Made by a program: the position numbers and the translations under genes. Below, in pieces: positions 37,866 through 44,853 of a stretch of 64,000 nucleotides of DNA; position 1 is the stretch's first letter; every line of letters starts with the position of its first letter. The notes beneath the pieces are model-generated. The model made no database searches. It saw only the letters and a list, made by a program, of their open reading frames with translations, and was not told where the DNA came from. Location of the stretch: NCBI GenBank assembly GCA_013215805.1, contig JABSQM010000005.1, forward strand, positions 248,001 through 312,000. The letters are read 5' to 3'. This DNA is from Piscirickettsiaceae bacterium (GTDB lineage: Bacteria > Pseudomonadota > Gammaproteobacteria > Nitrosococcales > Methylophagaceae).

Positions 37866-38039
37866 TCAAGGCGTATTTTTTGATTTAACATCCACTATTG
37901 ATTCATCATCCATCAAAATTCTATTTGCAGCACCATCCATGTCATCATATTGACCACTACGTACAGCCCACAAAAATACTCCTATCCCTAAAATACCTAA
38001 AAGTAACACCCCTGGTAATAGACCATAGATAACCTCCAC
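37866..38039 (-). CDS. ccoS: cbb3 oxidase maturation protein CcoS (FixS)
   Basis: A 57-residue single-span membrane protein needed for assembly of cofactors into cbb3 oxidase. It reads from GTG 38039, 3 nt after the ccoI stop, as VEVIYGLLPGVLLLGILGIG, with a membrane helix and then the CcoS hallmark FLWAVRSGQYDDMDGAANRI ending shortly after. GGAG lies within the ccoI end region and coupling to ccoI is likely. Short length and the GTG start make it easy to miss. Confidence 0.93.
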   Translation of the reverse strand: MEVIYGLLPGVLLLGILGIGVFLWAVRSGQYDDMDGAANRILMDDESIVDVKSKNTP

Positions 38040-38042
38040 GAC

Positions 38043-40475
38043 TTACCTCTTAAATAGTTTTCCTATTCTGGCAGAATTGCCAATTACCAACAAAGAACTC
38101 AATGGCATAGTTAATGCTGCTACTATTGGGCTAACTAATGCCATCATTGCTAATGGTACCATAACAATGTTATAAGAAATTGATAATACAATATTTTGCT
38201 TAATTATGTATAGAGTTTTATCTGATAAATGCTTAGCTTCCGCAACTTGTCGTAAATTATTATGTGATAACACAATATCTGCACTCTCTATTGAGACGTC
38301 TGTACCATAGGCTAAGGCAATGCCGACATCAGCTTGAATCAAAGCTGGAGCATCATTAATACCATCCCCTACCATAGCTACAATTTCACCTTTTAATTGC
38401 AACTGTCGAATAATATTAGATTTATCTTTTGGAGATACTTCTGCCAAACGATTGATATTTCCTAAATTAGCAGTAACAGCCGTTACCACAGATTTTTTGT
38501 CACCACTCAACACCGTGATGTCAATATCACGCTCCCGCAATACGGAAATAATAGTTTTTACCTCAGGACGCAGCTCATCAACCAAGCCTAAAAAACCAGA
38601 AAATGCACCTTCAATAGCGATGAATACACAACTTATACCTTTCTGTTCCAAATTACAAATTTGAGCGTACAACTCTGGACTTACTGTTATTTCATGCTTT
38701 AATAACCATTCCTGAGTACCTATTAATACCTGTTTATTATTAACCATGCCCCCAACACCTTCTCCAGGTGATGAAATAAATCCAGATAATGGTAATAACG
38801 ATAACTGTTTATCCATTAAAGCTTGATGAAGTGATAAAGCAACACTATGTTCAGAATATTGCTCAACAGATGCTGCGAAGATTAATAGGACATCAACGGT
38901 AAAATTACCACACACTTCAATTTTCACTATCTTCAATTTACCATCAGTTAAGGTACCAGTTTTATCAAAAAAAACGTGAGTAATTTGAGATAATGCTTCC
39001 AAAGCAGAGCCCTGCTTTACTAAGATTCCTCGACTAGCGCCAACACCACTGGCAACTGCCACCGACATGGGGGTCGCCAAACCAAAAGCACAAGGACAAG
39101 TAATAATTAACACCGATGTTGATGCCAATAATGCAATTTCAAAACTATAGTGGCTCCAATAAATGAAGGTGATCATTGCTAAAAGCAGAGTAATTAGAAC
39201 AAACCAAGGGACAATTCTGTCGGCAACGGATTGTATTCGAGCTTTTGAGGCTTGAGCATCCTCCATTAATGCAACAATTTTTGACAAGGCTGTATCCCCC
39301 AATATACGTTCAACCATAATGATAAAAGCACCATCACCATTCATACTACCAGCAACTACCTTATCATCCACCACCTTAACTATCGAAACGGATTCGCCAG
39401 TAAGAATTGATTCATCAACAGCACTTTGGCCTTCTACTATCCTTCCATCCACTGGAATTTTTTCACCAGGTTTAACTAATACTTTATCACCAATGATGAC
39501 TGAACGTATCGGCATAACCTCATTTTTACCATTAACTATCACGGTAGCTAATTTAGGTTGTAACTCTAATAATCGGCTAGTTGCCGATAAAGCTCTCCTC
39601 CTTGAAATCGACTCAAGATATCGTCCAACTAATATAACAAACAAAAGGTTAATAACGGTATCAAAATAGACATCACCAATCATCCTATTCATAACAGTGA
39701 TATATGCTGAATAAATATAGGTGGTTATTGTACCTATTGCTATAGGTAGATCCATGGTTAGATAACCCCGCCGCAAGCCCCAAACTGCATTTTTCAGGAA
39801 AGGATAGCCAGCATAAAATAAAGTAGGAGTTGCAATAATAAGACCTACCCATTGAAACCAGTTACGAAATTCTCCTTGATCAGCCCCAGCATATAGAGCA
39901 ATTGAGATCCACATTAAATTCATCATCGCGAAACCAGCAACGCCCATTCTATACAACAGGCTACGGTGACGATGTGCCAATTCCTCATCTGCAGTATCGG
40001 AATCAAAGGGTATAGCTAAATAACCAACTTGAGTTAATGTTTGCAAAATTAAGGATAATGATACATTTTCATTATTCCAACGCAATAATAACCGCTTTGT
40101 GGTTAAATTAACTTCGGCAGATAATATCCCTGGTAGTTTTGCTACTGAATGTTCAATTAACCATACACAGGCAGCACAATGAATGCCCTCTATCAACAAA
40201 TTAATCCTTCTTTCATTGCCATGCTTTTCTACATAATCTAACTGTAACTCATCTGAATCATAGGAAATAAACTTTTCATTCATATCATGGGATGGAGCCA
40301 ATCCCCTGCCTTCAGGTGCTTTTTTATAAAAACTTTGTAAACCTGCATCATATATTGTTTGGCAAACAGTCACACATCCAAAGCAACAAAATTCTTGTTC
40401 AACACCCGCCACAAAAGAATTAAATATTCCTATTGATTCTATCAATAACCCACAGTGATAACAATTCTTTGACAA
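38043..40475 (-). CDS. ccoI: Copper-transporting P1B-type ATPase CcoI (FixI)
   Basis: Inner-membrane pump that exports Cu(I) for insertion in cbb3 oxidase. The 810 residues begin with a metal-binding-like CYHCGLL...CCFGC region, then a heavy-metal-associated domain with [12 protein letters not shown] (about 94-105), eight membrane helices, TGES in ILTGESVSI, the ion-channel motif [11 protein letters not shown], the phosphorylation motif DKTGTLT and [10 protein letters not shown]. The N-terminal cysteine cluster distinguishes FixI-type pumps from CopA. Lies between ccoH and ccoS. Confidence 0.95.
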
Positions 40476-40542: not shown

Positions 40543-41046
40543 CTATGGAGAAATTGTTATTCTTTTGGTCACTAGAAAAGCTTGTTCTCCTAATCTAGCC
40601 TCCGCTATCAAATCCCAAATGCCTGGCAACTTGAAACTAAACGATGCTCTATAAACTCCTATTCTTTCCTTGGTCATCTCTACAGAAAAATCATCCTTAG
40701 AATTTGATGGTCTATATGCATGAATGGTAACTAAGTCTAAATCTAAGCCTGCAGAATTTCTTCCGTGCAACAAGACTTCATATATTTGGGCACGATGAAC
40801 ACGAGCCATTGACGGAGTCATGATTGTTCCCGACCAACCTAGTTCTTGTTCTTCATTAATTTGTTTTTGAGTTTGCTCATATGTTTCTCCACGCTCATAA
40901 AAATCTTTTACCACTAAATTAGGTGGCAATGAAAATGCTAAATAAATAAAAATACCATTCGCTGTTAAAAATATCGCTAAAAATAATAGCAATCCTAATA
41001 CCCACGGATTTTTCAATGCTTCTGAGTTGCCTTGTGAAATATTCAT
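40543..41046 (-). CDS. ccoH: cbb3 oxidase assembly protein CcoH (FixH)
   Basis: A 167-residue protein with one N-terminal membrane helix (about 15-38, LGLLLFLAIFLTANGIFIYL) and a periplasmic FixH domain (PPNLVVKDFYERGETYEQ, then WDLIAEARLGEQAFLVTKRI). FixH/CcoH interacts with CcoN and helps insert subunits and copper. ccoG normally lies between ccoP and ccoH, but here a 330-bp gap and a tiny ORF separate them. Confidence 0.92.
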   Translation of the reverse strand: MNISQGNSEALKNPWVLGLLLFLAIFLTANGIFIYLAFSLPPNLVVKDFYERGETYEQTQKQINEEQELGWSGTIMTPSMARVHRAQIYEVLLHGRNSAGLDLDLVTIHAYRPSNSKDDFSVEMTKERIGVYRASFSFKLPGIWDLIAEARLGEQAFLVTKRITISP

Positions 41047-41331
41047 ATTTCATTAACCATAAATTTAGTACCCATAAACTCGCTATCTATACAGCAATAA
41101 CGAATTAAATAGGTATTGTCCATCGGATATTTAGTCTCATTCAACAAAGTATTGGATATCAAAAGCGATAGAGGGAAACTTCATCGAGTATAGTTTAGAA
41201 CTTTGGTATATTTATGCTAAGAAGAATCGTTAGCCTGTCGTCATTTGCGACATTAATTATAGAACCAACTTAATGCCTATCAAGGATAGTAATTATATTA
41301 TTTCTTGATATCAATATATCAAATAATTAAA
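41047..41331. other. Gap between ccoH and the ccoNOQP operon, where ccoG is expected
   Basis: Non-coding stretch between the ccoH start and the terminator hairpin. I looked for the polyferredoxin motifs (CxxCxxCxxxC) of CcoG on the reverse strand and saw none. The promoter for ccoHIS must be here but no convincing -35/-10 pair stands out. An imperfect TTGAT/ATCAA arrangement near 41306 lacks the FNR spacing. Confidence 0.45.
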
Positions 41332-41351
41332 AGCCGACATAAATGTCGGCT
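41332..41351 (-). terminator. Rho-independent terminator of the ccoNOQP operon
   Basis: AGCCGACA and TGTCGGCT form an 8-bp perfect stem around TAAA. On the reverse strand the stem is followed by TTTTAATTATTT. It sits 25 bp downstream of the small CcoM-like ORF and so ends the ccoN-O-Q-P-ORF transcript. The clearest intrinsic terminator in the window. Confidence 0.85.
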
Positions 41352-41376: not shown

Positions 41377-41496
41377 TCAATCATCATCAGACTTCTTAGA
41401 CATATTTTTGATAATATTATAACCAAGAAATGCCCCAATAACAATTGTAATAACCACGCTTGCAATAGTAAAAATTACAACTATATCAATTTGCAT
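41377..41496 (-). CDS. Small single-span membrane protein, candidate cbb3 subunit CcoM
   Basis: A 39-codon ORF (MQIDIVVIFTIASVVITIVI then GAFLGYNIIKNMSKKSDDD) with AGGAG 8 nt before the ATG at 41496. It consists of one membrane helix (about 4-26) and a short basic, then acidic tail. It is the last gene of the ccoNOQP operon, 62 bp after ccoP and just before a strong terminator. Size and topology match CcoM, the 36-37 residue subunit seen in the Pseudomonas stutzeri cbb3 structure, including a glycine-aromatic turn before a lysine-rich end. Homology cannot be shown by eye for such a short protein; operon position, ribosome site and terminator make it a real gene. Confidence 0.68.
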   Translation of the reverse strand: MQIDIVVIFTIASVVITIVIGAFLGYNIIKNMSKKSDDD

Positions 41497-41558
41497 ATTT
41501 ATAACTCCTAGCCAGACCACTAATCAGCTACAAAAAGCTGAAAATAGTTCAATAATTA

Positions 41559-42515
41559 TTATTGGCCACCACCAAATTGGTGAACATAAACAGCTAATTT
41601 CTTAATTTCCGTCTCTGTTAACCGCTCGGCCTCATCTCCTTCTAACTCATCACTCCAGTCAATATCATTAGGATCCTCGCCTTCTTCAATGGCATATGCT
41701 TTGGCTTCCATCATAACTGCAAGCTTTTCGCTCCACTGAGGCATGACCGCAACACGTGTCTGAGAATCATTTGTAGAATTGACACCATGAAGAATAGTAT
41801 ATCTAATCTCATCTTCAGAGCCTGCAAAACGCCAAACTCTATCTGCTAAGTTGGCAGACCCCACTAATTTAATGCCTGTTGCGTCGGAACCATGACAAGC
41901 GACACAACCTTTGGTGTTATATAAATTCATCCCAGACTCATTAGAAACACCATTTGAGGTATCAATAACGAATTGTACTAGCTGATCAACTTCCTCATCA
42001 TTTAACATCGCAGCATGTGCTGGCATCATACCCATACGACCATTAGCAATGCTCATCATAATCTCATTAATAGCCCCCCCATACAACCAATCATCATCGG
42101 CCAATATGGGATAACCAGAACCCGCGGTGGGATTACCGCCCGTTCCATGACAGGCGGCGCAATTATCACCAAAAAGCACCTTGCTAGAACCTGTAACATA
42201 GTTAAGCATATCTTGATCAGCCAAAATTTCCTCCGCTGACATTACCATCAACTTATCTTCAAAAGGTGCTCGCTTTAACTCAACCTTCGCTAACTCTTCT
42301 TTGTACTTTGTAATTTGAGTCCAGCCCCGCAAACCCTCTGTACTGCCATTGACTAATGGTAGAGATGGAAACAAAATATAATATACAATAGTGAATAAGC
42401 CACTTAAATATAGAGCATTTAACCACCAACGTGGGCAAGGGTTATCAAACTCCTTGATACCATCCCACTCATGCCCCGTATCTAATACCTGATTAGAATT
42501 GTTTTTATCTGCCAT
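41559..42515 (-). CDS. ccoP: cbb3-type cytochrome c oxidase subunit III (CcoP, diheme)
   Basis: Membrane-anchored diheme cytochrome c that passes electrons to CcoO. The 318 residues have an N-terminal helix (about 31-52, WWLNALYLSGLFTIVYYIL), then two c-type domains with heme sites CAACH (near 139) and CVACH (near 208) and Met ligands such as MMPAHAAML. The CcoP N-terminus (HEWDGIKEFDNPCPRWW) is diagnostic. The gene contains a run of seven C at 42074-42080, a potential slippage site. It overlaps ccoQ by 11 nt. Confidence 0.96.
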   Translation of the reverse strand: MADKNNSNQVLDTGHEWDGIKEFDNPCPRWWLNALYLSGLFTIVYYILFPSLPLVNGSTEGLRGWTQITKYKEELAKVELKRAPFEDKLMVMSAEEILADQDMLNYVTGSSKVLFGDNCAACHGTGGNPTAGSGYPILADDDWLYGGAINEIMMSIANGRMGMMPAHAAMLNDEEVDQLVQFVIDTSNGVSNESGMNLYNTKGCVACHGSDATGIKLVGSANLADRVWRFAGSEDEIRYTILHGVNSTNDSQTRVAVMPQWSEKLAVMMEAKAYAIEEGEDPNDIDWSDELEGDEAERLTETEIKKLAVYVHQFGGGQ

Positions 42516-42717
42516 CTTCTATCTCCACATTTTTCTTGTCGTCATTCAAAGGCATGTTGCGATGTGATTCAAAACTTTCCTTATTTTTAGGATGCAATAC
42601 CCAAGAATAAAGTACAACCATTAACATAAAGATGACAACTGTCATCACCATCCCTAACCAATCGGTTCCAGTCATTGCACTCCAGTCTGTATGAAAATAC
42701 TCCTGAATTCTAGTCAC
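42505..42717 (-). CDS. ccoQ: cbb3-type oxidase small subunit CcoQ
   Basis: A 70-residue single-helix protein that stabilises the oxidase. The membrane helix is about 21-42 ([20 protein letters not shown]), followed by the typical [11 protein letters not shown]. It overlaps ccoO by 8 nt and ccoP by 11 nt, so the four subunits are translationally coupled. Confidence 0.9.
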
Positions 42718-43390
42718 GGTAGTCTCTTCCCGGTTCGAATTTAATCATGGTGCCTAATACCTGAAGAAAAGAAACTACAGCCTGCATCTCTGTCTGTCCC
42801 TCAACGGATTTTGCAGCTAAATTAATATCTTCATCTGAATATGGAACACCTAAAACCCTCATGGCTCTTAACCGTGTCTCCATACCTGCTCCATCAATCG
42901 TAGCCTTATCTAGCCATGGATATCTTGGCATCACTGACTCAGGAACAACACTGCGTGGATCACGTAAATGTTGAATATGCCAAGCATCGGAATACTTGCC
43001 CCCCAAGCGAGCAAGATCGGGCCCAGTGCGCTTAGAGCCCCACAAAAATGGATGATCATATTTTGATTCAACGGCTAGGGAATAATGTCCATAGCGATCC
43101 TTCTCATCCCTAAAAGGACGGATCATCTGTGAGTGGCACAAAAAACAACCCTCACGTTGATATATATCACGTCCAGCCAGCTCTAAAGCTGTATATGGAC
43201 GCACACCGGATAACTCTTCATATTCCGGATGATTAACATCCTCAAAGGTTGAATCTAAATAAAATAGAGGTACAATTTCGACAATTCCGCCTACTGACAC
43301 GACTATTGCTGTCGTGAGCACCAAAGCCCAAATATTTTTCTCCAGCTTTTCCTGAAAGGATATTGGTTTATTAGAATCATTATTAGACAT
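42710..43390 (-). CDS. ccoO: cbb3-type oxidase monoheme subunit II (CcoO)
   Basis: Membrane-anchored monoheme cytochrome c. The 226 residues show one N-terminal helix (about 17-42), [19 protein letters not shown], the heme site [12 protein letters not shown] (near 78-89) and the C-terminal block [11 protein letters not shown]. Located 11 nt after ccoN. Length is slightly above the usual 200-210. Confidence 0.96.
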
Positions 43391-43401: not shown

Positions 43402-44832
43402 TTAAATATTAGCTGCAATAGCTATCTTTTCGGATGCAGATTTATCAGCCATAGATTTGCGAAGAGTCGCAGTAATATTAAATAGCATCACACATGCCCC
43501 CAAAAAGAAGGTGAGCCCGCCCATAGCTCGCATTGCATAATAAGGATGCATTTGCTCAACCGATTCAACGAAAGTATAGGCCAAATTGCCATAATCATCG
43601 TAAGCACGCCACATTAAACCTTGCATAATACCAGATACCCACATCGCTGTAATATAAGTAGCTGTACCGATTGTTGCCATCCAAAAATGTAAGTTAACTA
43701 ATTTAATGGAATAGATAGTGGTACCCCACAGACGCTCTACCATGTGATAGATTGCACCAATAGAAACCATGGCTACCCAACCCAACGCACCCGCATGAAC
43801 ATGACCAATAGTCCAATCAGTATAATGAGATAAAGCATTTACCGTCCTTGCAGCCATAACTGGACCTTCAAACGTGGACATCGCATAGAATGCTAGAGAG
43901 ACAATCAGAAATCGCAAAATATAATCAGTACGCAATTTATCCCAAGCACCACTCAAAGTGAACATCCCATTGATCACGCCTCCCCATGATGGAATAATCA
44001 TTGATAATGAAATACCAGCTGCAAGTGTTCCGGTCCAATCTGGTAATGCCGTGTAGTGCAAATGATGTCCCCCTAACCAAACATAGCCAAAAGTTAGCGC
44101 CCAAAAATGAATAACTGATAAGCGATATGAATACATGGGACGATTTGCTTGTTTGGGGACGAAATAATACATTATACCTAAAAAACCAGCAGTTAAGTAA
44201 AATCCTACTGAATTATGACCCCACCACCACTGAATCATTGCATCTTGTACACCAGCAAAAATTGAATATGATTTCCACAAACTCACGGGAATGACGAGGC
44301 TATTAACCACATGTAAAAAAGTAACCATAATCATCATTGCAAGGAAAAACCAGTTCGCTACATAGATGTGTGACACCTTACGAATAGACAAGGTCATAAT
44401 GAAATTAAAGGTATAAGCTATCCACACGGCTGCAATCAGGATATCAAGAGGCCATTCTAGCTCCGCATACTCTTTGGACTGAGTCAATCCTAAGGGTAAG
44501 GTACATATGGCACCTATGATGACCAAATTCCAACCCCAAAAGGTGAACCAAGCCATCTTGTCACTCCACAAACGTACTCCAGAAGTACGTTGCACAATAT
44601 AATATGCCGTAGCCATCAACGTAGATCCACCAAAGGCAAAAAGAACCATATTTGTATGTAAAGGACGTAAACGACCAAAACTAATATAAGGATTATCAAA
44701 ATTTAGAACTGGCCATGCCAGCTCCGAAGCTATCCATACGCCAAGTCCAGTTCCCACGACTAAATAGACAGCTGCCATATAGACAAACCACCTAACTATT
44801 TCAAAATTATATTGCTGCTGTTCCGCTTGCAT
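43402..44832 (-). CDS. ccoN: cbb3-type cytochrome c oxidase catalytic subunit I (CcoN)
   Basis: Proton-pumping heme-copper oxidase subunit that reduces oxygen with very high affinity. The 476 residues have twelve membrane helices, the low-spin heme histidine in [10 protein letters not shown], CuB ligands in [10 protein letters not shown] and [13 protein letters not shown], and heme ligands in [15 protein letters not shown] start at ATG 44832 (MQAEQQQY), preceded by AAGGTG at normal spacing; a TTG at 44853 extends the frame by seven residues. First gene of ccoNOQP. With no other terminal oxidase visible, microaerobic respiration is implied. Confidence 0.97.
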
Positions 44833-44853
44833 AGCGATCACACCTTCTGTCAA

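Follow-up and report, generated by a model that had tools for sequence, protein, structure and literature searches.

Gene organization at the cco locus

The window, that is, the whole stretch of 64,000 nucleotides analyzed, contains an ordinary cco cluster, in which ccoN, ccoO, ccoQ, ccoP, a ccoM-like ORF, a terminator, ccoH, ccoI, and ccoS follow one another on the minus strand. The gene of the catalytic subunit, ccoN (43402..44853, minus strand), was recognized as an ORF whose orthologues are 75–89% identical and collinear in the fetched loci, and ccoO (42710..43390, minus strand) as an ORF with collinear orthologues in relatives. The ordinary small subunit is encoded by a separate ccoQ (42505..42717, minus strand). 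ccoP (41559..42515, minus strand) encodes cbb3 subunit III, a dihaem cytochrome c; it reaches 252.7 bits with TIGR00782 (cut-off 179.95) and matches FixP_N and Cytochrome_CBB3.

Behind ccoP lies an ORF of 39 codons with one predicted transmembrane helix (41377..41496, minus strand). A spacer of 62 nt separates it from the ccoP stop, and 25 nt lie between its end and a strong intrinsic terminator (41332..41351, minus strand; AGCCGACATTTATGTCGGCT-TTTAATTATT), which closes the ccoNOQP-M unit. The sequence-only reading had placed the ORF between ccoP and a strong intrinsic terminator, and this position (ccoP ending at 41559, terminator at 41351–41332) was confirmed. A GC-rich hairpin with a T-run of the same kind is found directly 3′ of the ORF in five relatives. 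Past the terminator, the next gene is ccoH/fixH (40543..41046, minus strand; Pfam FixH, 85.6 bits), preceded by a sigma-70-like site (41283–41256) with 11 of 12 positions matching. It is followed by ccoI, for a copper-transporting P-type ATPase of oxidase assembly (38043..40475, minus strand; an ORF collinear with ccoH in relatives), and by ccoS (37866..38039, minus strand; TIGR00847, 62.1 bits, cut-off 28.35). Our scan for FNR boxes gave matches at chance level only.

In relatives, the small gene and ccoH are far enough apart to hold one further gene, apparently ccoG. In the window, ccoG is absent from this expected place (41047–41331), where the terminator and the sigma-70-like site are left before ccoH. 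Loss of ccoG by this organism was ruled out, as the gene is present on the same contig about 55 kb away (G000:C23:233111-234406). The source genome (G000) measures 1.15 Mb at an estimated completeness of 100%, its congeners, at 2.1 and 2.4 Mb, being about twice as large, and the G+C content of the window is 36% versus 41–42% in the ccoP loci of the congeners. By size and G+C relative to these congeners, the source genome is a reduced genome.

The 39-residue ORF is a gene conserved in Methylophagaceae

Translation of the ORF from 41496 to 41377 on the minus strand gives MQIDIVVIFTIASVVITIVIGAFLGYNIIKNMSKKSDDD. A Shine–Dalgarno sequence, AGGAG (41505..41509, minus strand), was read 8 nt upstream of its ATG, and an SD-like motif precedes 46 of 46 Methylophagaceae copies, which bears out the ribosome site proposed from the sequence. 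A longer in-frame version starting at GTG (41520, 47 aa) has no backing from the ribosome site or from conservation. The single membrane helix proposed earlier is likewise predicted here: hydropathy peaks at 2.87 over residues 5–23, and an AlphaFold2 model consists of a single helix from residue 5 to 37 with a mean pLDDT of 88. From its Lys-rich C-terminal side, the protein is probably oriented with the N-terminus outside and the C-terminus inside. The FixQ profile (PF05545) finds no match in this ORF, and at ccoQ it gives 25.9 bits, slightly below the Pfam cut-off of 29. Since a separate ccoQ exists in the cluster, the ORF would encode an extra small protein.

The first matches behind ccoP, from the same genus and family, came from a protein search. 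ccoP was found in 52 of 57 Methylophagaceae genomes, 50 of which have readable DNA downstream of ccoP and were thus assessable. The small ORF stands behind ccoP in 46 of these 50, so that the conservation expected by the sequence-only reading was indeed found. These 46 copies begin 27–76 nt from ccoP and are 35–42 aa long. In GTDB contigs, alignment A3, narrower than A1, found 17 loci. Several of these are from named Methylophaga, including Methylophaga aminisulfidivorans, M. sulfidovorans, M. lonarensis, and M. thiooxydans, and these names point to an organism of Methylophagaceae type as the source of the window. Two sequence types, DAVVIG (for example, L037, L048, and L055) and DWVS[IV]S (L035, L046, and L047), occur behind closely related ccoP genes, and both are present within genus g4.

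Codon comparison within Methylophagaceae indicates strong purifying selection on the ORF, with a pooled pN of 0.071 and a pS of 0.487; dN/dS values mostly lie between 0.02 and 0.3. A length of only 39 codons would be compatible with an ORF that arose by chance in the trailer of ccoP, but the frame, the start, the SD sequence, and residues are conserved across families, and with dN/dS in this range a chance origin is extremely improbable. Judged by its conservation and selection, the ORF is a real gene.

Four genomes with ccoP lack the ORF (G005, G006, G027, and G063), and their ccoP is directly followed by a ccoG-like gene. No copy was detected elsewhere in these four genomes at the search sensitivity used. 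As they form one clade, a single loss is probable, and because they keep the oxidase genes, the ORF appears dispensable in some lineages. G014, G025, G033, and G064, four members of the family that were searched and yielded no ccoP, are likewise without the ORF.

The encoded protein resembles CcoM

With 39 residues and one helix starting near the N-terminus, the protein falls within the size range of CcoM (about 36–43 aa) and has its topology. In NCBIfam, the sole match of the single ORF is NF041600, CcoM, aligned over its full length (1–34 of 34) with 16.7 bits and an E-value of 0.0073. The comparison with a CcoM HMM suggested earlier holds for the full-length alignment and not for the score, which stays far below the equivalog cut-off of 40 bits. 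Pfam gave no significant match for the ORF; scattered Pfam matches of its relatives (Syndecan and similar) were dismissed as generic transmembrane noise. Frames just upstream of ccoP, probably CcoQ, also match NF041600 weakly.

We then compared profiles. Against 177,635 PDB sequences, the profile of alignment A2 ranks CcoM of Pseudomonas stutzeri first (5djq_N, E 0.011; next match 0.39). It is the profile alone that finds CcoM, phmmer with the single ORF giving no match in PDB. Genuine CcoMs (n = 22) were gathered from two groups of genomes, and hhalign matched A2 to them with 95% over 40 columns, end to end (94.8% with A1), versus 0.1–27% for control pieces from CcoQ, CcoO, CcoP, FixH, and CcoN; the end-to-end similarity is clearly above that of other one-helix oxidase pieces. 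The A2 profile scores 18 of the 22 genuine CcoMs above all 572 control transmembrane pieces, and 11 of the 37 A2 members score above all control pieces when the test is run in reverse. Single scores should not be over-read, because with an earlier set of controls, some of them taken from loci obtained through profile matches, a few transmembrane pieces reached up to 27 bits.

The aligned genuine CcoMs share seven invariant residues (M1, D4, G10, V14, F20, F27, and D31), of which the ORF keeps three (M1, D4, and V14). It shares with P. stutzeri CcoM (PDB 5djq chain N; NF041600) a length of 36–39 aa, one helix, a short M-x-x-D motif at the N-terminus with a Val after it, positive charge on the C-terminal side of the helix, and occurrence in cbb3-bearing genomes. 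It differs in lacking G10, F20, F27, and D31 and in having an acidic tail. The place of the gene differs as well: here it is the last gene of ccoNOQP, whereas in pseudomonads genuine ccoM is unlinked from cco genes. No cco gene was found within about 1.5 kb on either side of the genuine ccoM loci, nor within 3.5 kb for G207, and the ccoP of genomes with genuine CcoM belongs to another CcoP clade.

The protein could instead be a genuine small subunit or assembly factor of the cbb3 oxidase whose resemblance to Pseudomonas CcoM arose by convergence and not by descent. Single-helix peptides easily reach similar scores, and the missed NF041600 cut-off, the four absent invariants, and the different gene place would fit such an origin. 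Against it, the collinear end-to-end profile match and the common N-terminal motif are features that the CcoQ, CcoO, CcoP, FixH, and CcoN controls fail to reproduce, and CcoM is the top match in both NCBIfam and PDB. We therefore regard convergence as rather unlikely. On these sequence comparisons, the 39-residue protein is very probably a distant relative of CcoM. The label CcoM-like given by the sequence-only reading agrees with the remote similarity and is kept in preference to CcoM, because the score is below the NF041600 cut-off and only three of seven invariants are retained.

Distribution beyond Methylophagaceae

A search for ccoP covered 276 gammaproteobacterial genomes, and the DNA downstream of the gene was read at about ninety places. 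Small ORFs of the same pattern occur behind ccoP throughout one CcoP group, with sequences such as MDAVVIGSI, DWVAIGSY, and NDWVLWGSI. In a CcoP tree from a quick search, one clade (support 99) has the ORF in 43 of 51 rows, and the other clades are without it, save for one weak call of 16.8 bits (L156) that we regard as false. The 37 members of A2 have only one Asp and one Val as invariant residues. Searching whole genomes with A2 gave 31 matches below 1e-4, nearly all adjoining ccoP. Plasmid records, in which an annotated copy was sought, held only more distant CcoP types (<60% identity, mostly from rhizobia and their relatives).

Two genomes, G171 and G183, each have a second, unlinked CcoM-like gene (L226:4308-4421 and L227:3669-3788), encoding MDATAIGAVLSVVGSIIVFVFLGVRITRLMKTCNSQD and MLDATAILAIFGVIGSVMVFGVLGFRITRLMKSCNSEEL. 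These share a C-terminal R-I-T-R-L-M-K-x-C-N-S motif that includes a cysteine, and may possibly form a paralogous subfamily. A 36-aa weak CcoM match, MWTDPTFIASMIVIGGTLAFLGGVYYVMYQGIANSK, was found in G545 (L305:2547-2657), flanked by one ORF that by its appearance may be a regulator of the CRP/FNR type and another that may be a CzcA-like pump.

Proposed role at the cbb3 oxidase

Other small oxidase proteins offer comparisons. CcoM, a subunit of the cbb3 oxidase of P. stutzeri, has 36 aa (PMC10433244) and, as papers citing the original work describe it, is required for stability and not for activity. Like CcoQ/FixQ, the ORF product is a small one-helix protein encoded in the cbb3 operon, but ccoQ is present separately (42505–42717), the ORF has no FixQ match, and the profile comparison with CcoQ fails. 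In Campylobacter jejuni, activity depends on a number of small genes that lie between ccoP and ccoH, and CcoY (Cj1485, 33 aa) is needed for normal oxidase activity (PMC8267372). CcoY is also a tiny one-helix protein with a gene downstream of ccoP, although it comes from another phylum, is located behind CcoX (DUF4006), and is likened here by description. CydX and CioY, the latter a tiny one-helix protein of a bd-type oxidase (PMC11955535), are analogous in working as tiny oxidase-binding proteins but belong to another oxidase superfamily; no CydX family appeared among the Pfam and NCBIfam matches of the ORF.

The best explanation, which we consider likely, is that the ORF is the real last gene of a ccoN-ccoO-ccoQ-ccoP-ccoM unit and encodes a remote CcoM homologue that stabilizes or assembles the cbb3 oxidase. 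A 39-residue single-pass inner-membrane protein would be made from this last gene, and its helix would insert so that the N-terminus faces outward and the Lys-rich end inward. This one helix would most likely pack against the membrane core of the oxidase and, without a cofactor, help the CcoNO and CcoP parts to assemble or hold together. A stabilizing role, taken by analogy from P. stutzeri CcoM, is most likely; expression of the ORF and binding of its product to the oxidase are what we infer. The direct link to the oxidase proposed from the operon position stands as far as gene order is concerned, the ORF lying behind ccoP in the family and before the terminator, and would extend to presence in the complex.

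The protein could also be an assembly or regulatory peptide, acting with CcoG/CcoH/CcoI in copper delivery or in the formation of a supercomplex with bc1, and not a stoichiometric subunit. The ccoG gene directly behind ccoP in genomes without the ORF, the ccoH, ccoI, and ccoS genes that come next in the window, and the requirement for the small C. jejuni genes between ccoP and ccoH (PMC8267372) are consistent with such a function. However, because the terminator separates the ORF from the next gene, the ORF belongs by position with the structural genes, and its similarity is to a structural subunit. We consider an assembly or regulatory function unlikely and favor a subunit related to CcoM.

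The literature found describes no such gene behind ccoP in gammaproteobacteria, subscription papers being mostly outside this search, and it describes CcoM for some Pseudomonas only. Tentatively, and with slightly less than even confidence, we propose that the ORF stands for a widespread family of cbb3 subunits, apparently not yet catalogued, whose genes lie in the operon and whose occurrence follows one CcoP clade through many families of Gammaproteobacteria. Its members might be CcoMs encoded in the operon, in which case ccoM either left or entered the operon somewhere between this clade and the pseudomonads; or they might be a separate, fifth subunit that docks at a site of its own on this oxidase type. 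If this is true, an additional one-helix subunit would be widely shared among the cbb3 oxidases of Gammaproteobacteria. Asp-x-Val near the start of a one-helix ORF of about 40 aa directly behind ccoP would serve as a handle for annotation. The clade without the ORF would provide a natural comparison, and the role of the subunit would be accessible through one small gene in cultured methylotrophs.
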